From the NCBI RefSeq assembly GCF_012395815.1, contig NZ_JAAZQQ010000001.1:868001-932000 (forward strand): a stretch of DNA of 64,000 nt, given 5' to 3'. Shown here piece by piece: positions 12,094 through 14,214 of the stretch. Both the position numbers and the translations under genes were made by a program. The notes beneath the pieces were generated by a model. It did no database searches, was not told where the DNA came from, and saw only the letters and a list, made by a program, of their open reading frames with translations. Numbering within the stretch: position 1 is the first letter of the stretch; each line of letters begins with the position of its first letter. Source of the DNA: Roseicyclus persicicus. Lineage in GTDB: Bacteria; Pseudomonadota; Alphaproteobacteria; Rhodobacterales; Rhodobacteraceae.

Positions 12094-12378
12094 ATGAAGA
12101 CCCTGGTTCTGGAACCCGACCCGATGCGCGCGCAAAGCTGGGTGGCCCTCTATGGTGGCGTCATGGGCGAGGTGCATGTCGCCCGCAGCCCGGCGCAGGC
12201 CCGCCTGATGCTGGCCGGCGGCAGCTACGACCGGCTGTGCCTCGCGGCGGAGGGCGCCAGCCTGGCGCTCCTGTCGGTGGTGCGCGCCGTCAACCCGGGC
12301 TGCGAGATCGTCGACCTGGGCACCCGCCGCGCGCGCCCGGCGAACGGCGCGGCCGATCCCTGGCCCCTCACCCCCTGA
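12094..12378 (+). CDS. small degenerate receiver-like protein
   Basis: Predicted 94 residues. The beginning (KTLVLEPDPMRAQSWVALYGG, then ARSPAQARLMLAGGSYDRLCL) follows the first half of a response-regulator receiver domain: a beta strand, an acidic pair, a helix, then a second strand. Where the phosphate-accepting Asp is expected there is Leu-Cys-Leu, and the protein stops before a full receiver fold would end. It could be a truncated or repurposed receiver; I do not recognise a named family. GGGGAGGA lies just ahead of the ATG. Its end overlaps the convergent LysE gene by 11 bases. It may be co-transcribed with uvrD. Confidence 0.6.
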   Translation: MKTLVLEPDPMRAQSWVALYGGVMGEVHVARSPAQARLMLAGGSYDRLCLAAEGASLALLSVVRAVNPGCEIVDLGTRRARPANGAADPWPLTP

Positions 12379-12961
12379 GCATCGGCCACAGCGACGCGAC
12401 CAGCAGCAGCGCCATCGTCACGTTGAAGGCCCGGAGCCGCCCCGGCCCGTCCAGCCAGCGCCGCAGCTGCGTGCCCGCCGCCGCCCAGACCGCGACCGAG
12501 GGCAGGTTCACCAGCGCGAACACCCCCGCCACGACCAGCGCGCCCCAGAGGCCGCCGTCGGGCGCGAAGTTGGTCTGGGCGTAGATCGACATGTACCACG
12601 CCTTGGGGTTCACCCACTGGAACCCCGCCGCCTGCAGGAAGCTGAAGGGCCGCCCGCCCGGCCTGGCCTCGCCCGGGGCGGCGGCGTTGGCGATCTTCCA
12701 CGCCAGCCACAGCAGGTAGGCCGCCGACACCGCCATCAGCGCCCCGCGCAGCCAGGGCAGGGCCTCGAACAGGCCGAGCAGCCCGAGCCCGACGAGCGCC
12801 GTCATCACTGCATGTCCGACCGAGATGCCCAGCATGTGCGGCACCGTGCGCCCGAGGCCGAAATTGGCGCCCGAGGCGAGCAGCATGATGTTGTTCGGCC
12901 CCGGGGTGATCGAGGACGCGAAGGCAAAGACCGCAAGGGCCAGGAGCAGATCGGGTGTCAT
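12368..12961 (-). CDS. LysE/RhtB-family amino-acid exporter
   Basis: Predicted 197 residues, inner-membrane protein with about six hydrophobic segments. Family signs: N-terminal SSITPGPNNIMLLASGANFGLGRTVPHMLGISVGHA and the central GFQWVNPKAWYM. LysE/RhtB proteins export amino acids such as lysine, arginine, threonine or homoserine lactone; the substrate here cannot be read off. The ATG at 12961 starts the conserved N-terminus; the longer in-frame extension would run into the divergent regulator. It is divergent from an Lrp/AsnC regulator 73 bases away, the usual arrangement for an exporter controlled by an amino-acid-sensing regulator. Confidence 0.87.
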   Translation of the reverse strand: MTPDLLLALAVFAFASSITPGPNNIMLLASGANFGLGRTVPHMLGISVGHAVMTALVGLGLLGLFEALPWLRGALMAVSAAYLLWLAWKIANAAAPGEARPGGRPFSFLQAAGFQWVNPKAWYMSIYAQTNFAPDGGLWGALVVAGVFALVNLPSVAVWAAAGTQLRRWLDGPGRLRAFNVTMALLLVASLWPMLRG

Positions 12962-12987
12962 GGCGGGCAGACTGCGCCGCCCGTGGC

Positions 12988-13000
12988 GCAATGAAATTGC
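12988..13000. promoter_or_regulatory. possible Lrp/AsnC-type operator
   Basis: GCAAT-GAA-ATTGC, a 13-base inverted repeat, the most AT-rich patch in the 73-base gap between the divergent exporter and Lrp-type regulator genes. Lrp-family proteins bind short AT-centred palindromes, so this could control both genes. No second half-site with fixed spacing was found. Confidence 0.4.
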
Positions 13001-13034
13001 AATCCGTGTGCAGGGCGGGCAATCTGCGCAAGGA

Positions 13035-13487
13035 ATGACGACGATTGACCAGAAAGACCGCCAGATATTGCGCGTGCTGTCCCGCGAGGGGCGGATCAGC
13101 AACCTCGACCTCGCCGAGCGGGTGGCGTTGAGCCCCTCGGCCTGTTCGCGCCGGGTGCAGGCGCTGGAGGCCGCGGGCGTGATCGCGGGCTACCGCGCGG
13201 TGCTGCCGCCCGACCGCCTGGGCCTGGGCTTCGTCGCCTACATCACCGTGGGCCTCAGCGAGCATACCAAGCGCGCGCAGGAGGCCTTCGAGCGCGCCAT
13301 GCAGGCCGCGCCCGAGGTCCGGGAGTGTCACAACATCACCGGGGCGGTGGAATACCTGCTGCGCGTCGAGGCGGCGGACCTGCCGTCCTACAAGCGGTTC
13401 CACACCGACGTGCTGGGGGCGCTGCCGCAGGTGGCGACGATCACGACCTATGTCGTGATGGGCTCGCCCAAGGACGAGCGCGCATAG
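13035..13487 (+). CDS. Lrp/AsnC-family transcriptional regulator
   Basis: Predicted 150 residues, the usual size. N-terminal helix-turn-helix at about residues 20-45 (ISNLDLAERVALSPSACSRRVQALEAAGVI) and C-terminal RAM ligand-binding/oligomerisation domain (GFVAYITVGL, ECHNITGAVEYLLRVEA, ITTYVVM). It should sense an amino acid and control the divergent LysE-type exporter, a pairing well known for this family; the effector is not predictable. AAGGA just before the ATG at 13035 serves as a ribosome site. The longer upstream reading frame overlaps the exporter and is not used. Confidence 0.88.
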   Translation: MTTIDQKDRQILRVLSREGRISNLDLAERVALSPSACSRRVQALEAAGVIAGYRAVLPPDRLGLGFVAYITVGLSEHTKRAQEAFERAMQAAPEVRECHNITGAVEYLLRVEAADLPSYKRFHTDVLGALPQVATITTYVVMGSPKDERA

Positions 13488-13500
13488 CGGGGACTGAAGG

Positions 13501-13545
13501 AAAAAAGGCGGCGGCATCCTAAGGGAGGAGGTGGATGCCGCCGCC
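13501..13545 (-). terminator. terminator closing the CcsR-type array
   Basis: Perfect 13-bp stem (13507-13519 with 13533-13545) followed leftward by six T. The 13-base loop holds the CCTCCTCCC motif, so the last sRNA hairpin also acts as intrinsic terminator. Confidence 0.85.
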
Positions 13546-13576
13546 AGCATACAGCGCCAAGGGAGGAGGAGGCGCC
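13501..13576 (-). ncRNA. CcsR-type sRNA, third in array
   Basis: Two CCTCCTCCC motifs (minus strand; 13561-13569 and 13523-13531), 38 bases apart. The second is presented in the loop of a perfect 13-bp hairpin that ends in a T6 tract; the first sits in a loop closed by a short GCGCC/GGCGC stem (13554-13558 with 13571-13575). Motif and placement downstream of a DUF1127 gene match the CcsR sRNAs of Rhodobacter sphaeroides, which are processed from a joint transcript and induced by stress. Ends are estimated from the hairpins. Confidence 0.75.
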
Positions 13577-13617
13577 GATCTGCGGGTCGCAAGGCGCAGG
13601 GCCTTGCGGGAATGGGG

Positions 13618-13698
13618 TGGCGGCAGGGCCAAGGGAGGAGGAGAGCCCCGCCGCCGGTCGTCACGGTTCCCCCAAAAGGGAGGAGGAGAGGGAACCGG
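13618..13698 (-). ncRNA. CcsR-type sRNA, second in array
   Basis: Two CCTCCTCCC motifs (13678-13686 and 13633-13641), 45 bases apart. The upstream hairpin has an 8-bp stem (13664-13671 with 13690-13697). The downstream one has an 11-bp stem with one mismatch (13619-13629 with 13645-13655). In both, the motif lies in the loop, free to pair with Shine-Dalgarno-like sequence. No T tract follows, so the end is probably made by RNase processing. Confidence 0.75.
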
Positions 13699-13728
13699 TC
13701 CGTGTGGCCCGTTGCCGGGCCGGGTAGA

Positions 13729-13801
13729 TGCGGACCCATCCTAGGGAGGAGGGAGATGGACCCGCGGGCCGGGCGATCCGAAGGGAGGAGGAGGATCGCC
13801 A
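13729..13801 (-). ncRNA. CcsR-type sRNA, first in array
   Basis: Two CCTCCTCCC motifs (13783-13791 and 13744-13752), 39 bases apart. The first hairpin is a perfect 8-bp stem (13772-13779 with 13793-13800). The second is a weaker 5+4-bp stem (13736-13740 with 13755-13759, and 13730-13733 with 13762-13765). It begins about 24 bases after the DUF1127 stop codon, so it is probably cut out of the DUF1127 transcript. Confidence 0.72.
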
Positions 13802-13824
13802 GGCTGTTCCGTGTGTCAGGCCGG

Positions 13825-14046
13825 TCAGACCTGCTTGCCGTAGGCCGCTTCCAGCGCGACCGAGCGCAGCGTCGTCGGGTTCAGCCCGAGATCCGCCAGC
13901 TCGCGCGGCGAGAGCGCTTGCAATTCGGCCAGCGTATGACGATAGACGCGGTAGGCGCGCCACGCATCGGACAGGTCCTTGCGGATCTCGGCGATACGGT
14001 CGCCAAAGCTCAGGGTCGCGCTGCGGTTGCTCGAAACATATGCCAT
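13825..14046 (-). CDS. DUF1127 small RNA-binding-type protein (CcaF1-like)
   Basis: Predicted 73-residue basic protein. The C-terminal half shows the DUF1127 core (YRVYRHTLAELQALSPRELADLGLNPTTLRSVALEAAYG). In Rhodobacter sphaeroides the DUF1127 protein CcaF1 is encoded directly upstream of the CcsR sRNAs, shares their stress-induced transcript and affects their maturation. The same layout here, with three sRNA units downstream, supports the same role. The ATG at 14046 has AGGAAAGAG upstream. I looked for a heat-shock-type promoter upstream and found nothing secure. Confidence 0.85.
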   Translation of the reverse strand: MAYVSSNRSATLSFGDRIAEIRKDLSDAWRAYRVYRHTLAELQALSPRELADLGLNPTTLRSVALEAAYGKQV

Positions 14047-14214
14047 GTTCAGTCTCTTTCCTCGGTCATCGGGGTTGCGCCGGATTGCGCTAACATCTTC
14101 CCCGTCAGGGCGTTGTGTCGTGTCCGCCCTTGTTGAAACCGAAGATAAGCGAATGCTGCGTCTGCACAATGGACGATGGTTCAATGCTGCTTTGCAGCAA
14201 ATGCATGGCTGGGG

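Follow-up and report, generated by a model that had tools for sequence, protein, structure and literature searches.

The minus strand of the window, i.e. the whole 64,000-base stretch of DNA that was analyzed, harbors between positions 14046 and 13501 a DUF1127 gene followed by three tandem pairs of hairpins. This arrangement very probably represents a CcsR locus, in which one transcript would give rise to three processed anti-Shine-Dalgarno (aSD) sRNAs from an RpoH-compatible promoter with an LsrB/VtlR-type switch. The assignment of the array to the CcsR type (cuckoo RNA, CIN1), with its tandem hairpin pairs, CCUCCUCCC loops and same-strand DUF1127 gene directly upstream, is largely right. 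Loci of this kind have already been published as 'CIN1 locus' and CcsR1-4, and as a CcsR locus the array is ordinary. The cuckoo RNA family and CIN1 locus (Reinkensmeier and Giegerich 2015; PMC10253847) are reported to comprise the same short DUF1127 gene and CcsR-like sRNAs, no difference in kind was found in what is reported of them, and CcsR-type loci are described as 'often found in alphaproteobacteria'. The hairpins in the linkers between the pairs and the conserved promoter (about 14143-14199) are additions to the original prediction.

The presence of the array, its fold and its conservation are direct observations. A pattern search located six exact copies of CCTCCTCCC in the window, all on the minus strand (13523, 13561, 13633, 13678, 13744 and 13783), compared to a mean of 1.55 and a maximum of 4 in dinucleotide shuffles of the window (six or more in 0 of 100). 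Successive copies are 38, 72, 45, 66 and 39 bases apart, in agreement with the pairwise arrangement that had been described for six motifs behind the DUF1127 gene (38-45 bases within and 66-72 between pairs). The pattern by itself is not enriched in the 3.71-Mb genome, which contains 43 copies as against 80 of a reversed control pattern; the six copies of the window form the only tight cluster among the matches listed. In the minimum-energy fold all six motifs are positioned within hairpin loops of 12-14 bases, as had been proposed, and the 328-nt array reaches -163.8 kcal/mol, whereas shuffles average -122.6 (z -9.06; none of 100 as low). Read along the minus strand, unit 1 consists of aSD hairpins 1 (13768-13804) and 2 (13730-13765), unit 2 of hairpins 3 (13659-13702) and 4 (13619-13655), and unit 3 of hairpins 5 (13547-13583) and 6 (13507-13545). 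Besides the fold, conserved pairs support hairpins 1 to 3 and paired changes hairpin 4. Two extra hairpins lie between the pairs, linker hairpin 1 (13706-13721) and linker hairpin 2 (13588-13608), both without the CCTCCTCCC motif. Hairpin 6 is directly followed by a T6 run (13501-13506, minus strand) and forms the stem of the terminator that the original prediction had placed there.

The Rfam model of CcsR1 (RF02791) matched exactly the three pairs on the minus strand, unit 1 at 13725-13807 (19.7 bits), unit 2 at 13615-13706 (20.4 bits) and unit 3 at 13503-13587 (34.3 bits). The covariance-model check that had been suggested for the array thus located each pair, but even the best score did not reach the curated cut-off of 65.3 bits. 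On its own, RF02791 is unconvincing for the two weaker pairs: genome-wide, the 20.4-bit pair scores no better than other sites (20.2 and 20.1 bits) and the 19.7-bit pair is missing from the list. At E<=10 the model is noisy, giving 15 matches in the genome itself and hits in 12 of the 14 control genomes. Of 295 genomes drawn from the family, 219 have a match at E<=1e-5, as against none of the 14 controls, and the curated cut-off is reached in 10 of the 295. This indicates that the cut-off marks a narrow subgroup. A second covariance model, R1, was built from one unit each of 20 CcsR loci and treats only the second of the two stems as paired. R1 recognized the three units of the window with 46.8, 37.7 and 27.9 bits (E 9.8e-11, 2.2e-8 and 7.5e-6), and its next-best match in the 64 kb had an E-value of 0.84. 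The reading of the array as three CcsR-type units is supported by RF02791 on exactly the three pairs together with R1 at E <=7.5e-6.

Matches were also obtained with the 6C RNA model (34.6 bits, below its cut-off) and, over a linker hairpin plus a pair, with the alpha-r14 model (RF02344; 32.2 bits, E 1.8e-4, cut-off 58.8). These scores would fit a 6C-type or alpha-r14-type RNA, with units composed of a plain hairpin and two aSD hairpins. 6C RNA is an unrelated family from other bacteria, and its match shows that a fold of this type with C-rich loops does not suffice for a diagnosis. Alpha-r14 RNAs are reported to carry the aSD motif in each of their three hairpins, whereas the linker hairpins of the window lack it. 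In addition, the best E-value belongs to CcsR1 and the DUF1127 neighbour suits CcsR, which makes an affiliation to 6C or alpha-r14 unlikely.

The DUF1127 gene of the presumed CcsR locus (13825-14046, minus strand) encodes a ccaF1-like protein of 73 amino acids that matches PF06568 with 43.6 bits (cut-off 23.3). It was compared in 79 DUF1127 loci, comprising the window and 78 relatives whose proteins share at most 81% identity with that of the window; one contig that was deposited twice (L048 and L049) is counted twice among them. Judged by the closest of these proteins, the organism stands near Roseicyclus. Downstream CCTCCTCC loops are present in at least two copies in 66 of the 79 loci, in one copy in 10 and in none in 3; none of the 79 carries the motif on the opposite strand within 1 kb. 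Across these loci the number of downstream loops spans 0 to 14, so that three units fall within the ordinary range and the different copy number that had been pointed out is nothing special. With one loop mismatch allowed, six loci of the Roseicyclus group including the window show loops spaced as three to six pairs (8 loops in L009, 6 in L011, 12 in L012, 11 in L013, 6 in L014 and 6 in the window); the additional units of L012 resemble repeated copies of its last unit. The genome contains a second DUF1127 gene (G000:C3:189080-189190); TTCTGCCATGCAGAAATTGCATG precedes the probable start of this gene by about 140 bases.

When units 1 and 2 from 11 loci were aligned, 48 predicted pairs were kept. 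Both partners have changed in 7 of these pairs (counts that leave out one alignment, A4, of the first unit alone, which was too ragged), and pairing is broken at 7 of the 48 column pairs or a few more, chiefly in hairpin 1. The hairpins are thus conserved in close relatives, and the proposed combination of constant loops with diverged stems stands, the stems being kept by paired changes. These data also bear on two other explanations. Every hairpin lies between the stop codon and the terminator, as would be expected if the hairpins were a structured 3' untranslated region with a terminator that guards the DUF1127 message and does not yield separate sRNAs. Loops that stay constant while stems vary in pairs argue against this, as does the report that the equivalent arrangement of Rhodobacter sphaeroides is cut into CcsR1-4, which affect C1 metabolism; we consider a purely protective role quite improbable. 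A protein-coding function of the stretch might be proposed on account of the open frames that cross the array, such as 12225-13739 and 13661-13963 (minus strand) and 13531-14136 (plus strand). However, chance frames are plentiful in a high-GC genome, the hairpins show compensatory changes, and alignment gaps in relatives do not come in threes, which leaves almost no room for a coding role.

The linkers between the sRNA units tend to bear a plain third hairpin. Among 165 linkers extracted over 99 loci, 136 (82%) fold at <= -8 kcal/mol compared to 28% of shuffles; at <= -4 kcal/mol linkers and shuffles differ much less (164 of 165 versus 71%). In linker hairpin 1, six pairs are kept in 11 of 11 aligned loci, with a T-A / C-G exchange at one pair, and its loop, GCAA in the window, reads GCAA, GAAA or GTGA and thus conforms to GNRA in all 11. 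Such caps are not general, as only 26 GNRA loops occur over the 165 linkers. It is conceivable that a linker hairpin marks the transcript for cleavage between units.

A block that is conserved between genera precedes the DUF1127 gene and consists, in this order, of TTGCTGCAtaGCaGcATTG, TTGTGCAnnYGCAGCA and a -10-like element. The promoter set comprised the same 99 loci, 79 DUF1127 and 20 CcsR loci, and TTGTGC was found in 84 of them (65 and 19, respectively). In the window, the -35-like TTGTGC is located at 14164-14169 and the -10-like CTTATCT at 14143-14149, both on the minus strand. The spacer between them contains GCAGCA (14154-14159, minus strand), a second copy of the right half of the upstream box TTGCTGCAtaGCaGcATTG. 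Promoter spacers are usually free to vary; this GCAGCA is almost invariant (79 of 84 promoters), and the base directly before it is a pyrimidine in 83 of 84. Positions were numbered with TTG at -36 to -34, after the published RpoHI/RpoHII logos (PMC3441632), with which the -10-like element was compared. CcsR loci with TTG at these positions have an A at -12, a T at -9 and CCCATGTT-like -10 elements. TTG and a TAT-type -10 element are both present in the window, with the spacing to CTTATCT one base shorter than in the ten CcsR loci that exceed the Rfam cut-off (L114-L123). The ccaF1-CcsR operon of R. sphaeroides has been reported to depend on RpoHI/RpoHII. From its sequence, an RpoH-type promoter at the DUF1127 gene of the window is plausible.

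The upstream box reads TGCAAAGCAGCATTG in the window (14182-14196, minus strand; family form TGCAtaGCaGcATTG) and resembles binding sites of LsrB/VtlR. Of the 84 TTGTGC promoters, 83 carry it either 26 (41 cases) or 27 (42 cases) bases ahead of TTGTGC; in other parts of the loci, matches occur at a background rate of 0.045 per 330 b. The ten CcsR loci L114-L123 carry the same box at the same distance. Among the DUF1127 loci, the box occurs in 64 of 66 with at least two loops, whereas it is present in 7 of the 13 that have fewer than two (Fisher p 1.5e-4, for relatives that are not independent). For Brucella VtlR, which regulates AbcR2 and DUF1127 genes, CAATGCAGCCATGCA is the reported binding sequence, and the 83 boxes were scored against its reverse complement, TGCATGGCTGCATTG. 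Agreement over the 15 bases amounts to 14 in 11 boxes, 13 in 27, 12 in 23, 11 in 19 and 10 in 3, with 12 in the box of the window. The published LsrB/VtlR consensus, GCAT-N3-TG-N3-T, is complete in 4 of the 83 boxes, and 67 deviate from it at most in the first T of TG, most boxes having an A in place of this T; the window retains 5 of the 7 fixed bases. With TTG at -36 the box is predicted at about -62 to -50, which corresponds to a published LsrB position, the site in Sinorhizobium abcR1 being reported at -61 to -49. In Sinorhizobium, LsrB is also reported to activate NfeR1, a CCUCCUCCC RNA, from a TGCA-N6-GCAT site at -72 to -60 (PMC10746234). The box of the window does not spell this site and differs in spacing. 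In the window, the A of the -10 element lies 49 bases after the start of the GCAA of the box. A box-like sequence was likewise seen downstream of the LysR gene in two trxB-LysR loci (L139 and L148, picked from 8 loose matches in 30 trxB loci), where a -10-like A follows GCAT by 50 bases.

In its commonest form the box includes CTGC-N3-GCAG and resembles the TGC-rich sites that have been reported for PhaR of Paracoccus and R. sphaeroides. Were the box a PhaR site, the operon would respond to polyhydroxybutyrate storage and not to an LsrB-type regulator. The phaP promoter of the genome, within the phaC-phaP-phaR cluster at G000:C1:547000-549500, has two CTGC-N3-GCAG sites 27 bases apart, and the spacer element TGC-ANNY-GCAGCA might represent a PhaR-like site in which the gap measures 4 bases. 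PhaR was found in 49 of 50 genomes searched (drawn from the 79 loci), so that its absence is no argument against this regulator and its presence does not discriminate between regulators. Genome-wide, CTGC-N3-GCAG is not enriched (72 versus 78 for the reversed pattern). The third base of N3 separates the two types of site. In 42 CTGC-N3-GCAG sites taken from the 2.2 kb that precede phaR in 20 relatives, some of these sites in coding sequence, it is always a pyrimidine (14 triplets, all RNY), whereas it is a purine in 82 of the 83 boxes (ATA 54, ATG 16, AAA 11, AAG 1, AAT 1). Moreover, many boxes lose the palindrome yet retain GCATAGC. PhaR was rejected as the owner of the upstream box on the basis of this contrast between RNY and ANR, and control of the operon by PhaR through this box appears improbable. 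The box itself suggests an LsrB-type regulator as its ligand.

A candidate for such a regulator is encoded in the genome. The lsrB gene is said to sit with trxB in Rhizobiales, and in 15 of 30 alphaproteobacterial trxB loci a LysR gene, recognized by a hand-made pattern, adjoins trxB. A profile of these 15 LysR proteins, called LsrB by synteny only, retrieved one outstanding protein from the genome (C7:88768-89634, 382.5 bits), the next LysR-type protein scoring 171.9. The C7 protein is 45-52% identical to the profile proteins, with a nearly identical DNA-binding region. In a 27-protein tree, several branches of which are long, it grouped with the trxB-adjacent LysR proteins at 94/98. No LysR gene beside trxB was found in the genome: trxB (G000:C3:300248-301153) adjoins an Lrp/AsnC-type gene, and the LysR gene lies on C7. 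Among the best 25 NCBIfam families for each of three LysR proteins there was no LsrB model. Provided that synteny names the reference proteins rightly, the genome would possess an LsrB-type regulator, which speaks against the statement in a 2025 paper that LsrB is unique to Rhizobiales (PMC11975290).

The DUF1127-CcsR operon of Rhodobacterales may belong to an LsrB/VtlR-type regulon, in which the LysR protein would bind the box and couple the redox or carbon state to the aSD RNAs on top of RpoH control; the chances that this broader proposal is right or wrong seem to us evenly balanced. A literature search that did not include the core CcsR/cuckoo papers found no work joining VtlR with CcsR and no report of a conserved box tied to an LsrB-type regulator in Rhodobacterales, and priority is not claimed. 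If the proposal is true, the link between LsrB, DUF1127 genes and CCUCCUCCC RNAs predates the split of Rhizobiales and Rhodobacterales. If an LsrB-type protein does bind the box, aSD RNAs as well as DUF1127 genes would be controlled by one regulator family in two alphaproteobacterial orders, and in roseobacters and Rhodobacter a second input beside RpoH would act on the stress RNAs.

That the locus is transcribed as a whole and then processed, and that its products mask their targets, is proposed by analogy with R. sphaeroides and Sinorhizobium. A single leftward transcript would start near 14133, carry the message of the ccaF1-like DUF1127 gene and end at the T6 terminator. Its 3' part would be cut between the units, probably by RNase E aided by the DUF1127 protein as in R. 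sphaeroides, to release three sRNAs of about 80-90 nt with two stems each. Their CCUCCUCCC loops would pair with purine-rich ribosome-binding sites of the GGAGG type and lower translation. As judged from the promoter elements, the transcript would be induced by stress through the RpoH-compatible promoter, which an LsrB/VtlR-type LysR regulator may switch through the box at about -62 to -50.

Among known systems, the CcsR1-4 locus of R. sphaeroides with ccaF1 (RSP_6037; RF02791) shares with the window the DUF1127 gene, the tandem two-hairpin CCUCCUCCC units, the terminator and the TTG of the -35 element; the loci above the Rfam cut-off also have the upstream box at the distance seen in the window. 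In contrast to CcsR1-4, the window has three units and not four, of 83-92 nt, stems so diverged that the Rfam cut-off is not reached, and CTTATCT in place of a CCCATGTT-like -10 element. The locus adds one more copy-number variant of CcsR. NfeR1 (alpha-r14) of Sinorhizobium meliloti likewise presents CCUCCUCCC loops on variable stems, and its transcription is reportedly switched on by LsrB via an upstream box (PMC10746234). It differs in being a single RNA with three aSD hairpins, its own sigma-70 promoter and extra control by NtrC, and a DUF1127 gene is not mentioned in the portion of this description consulted. In the VtlR/LsrB regulon of Brucella, Agrobacterium and Sinorhizobium, a LysR regulator acts on DUF1127 genes and aSD sRNAs. 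Its box and that of the window are alike in letters and position, the latter being a predicted site with an incomplete match to the consensus, and the regulator gene of the genome lies apart from trxB.

Further small RNAs were observed beside LysR genes. Just downstream of the C7 LysR gene a SorY-like sRNA was detected (L169:2538-2617; RF02651, 54.4 bits, cut-off 111), which was also matched by the SorX model (RF02784, 38.3 bits, cut-off 46.6). GCATAACGGCTTTG occurs upstream of this sRNA, with a promoter-like TTG...CTAAT stretch in between. In another alphaproteobacterium, a SorX-like RNA (L148:3643-3714; 42.6 bits, cut-off 46.6) is located downstream of the trxB-adjacent LysR gene.
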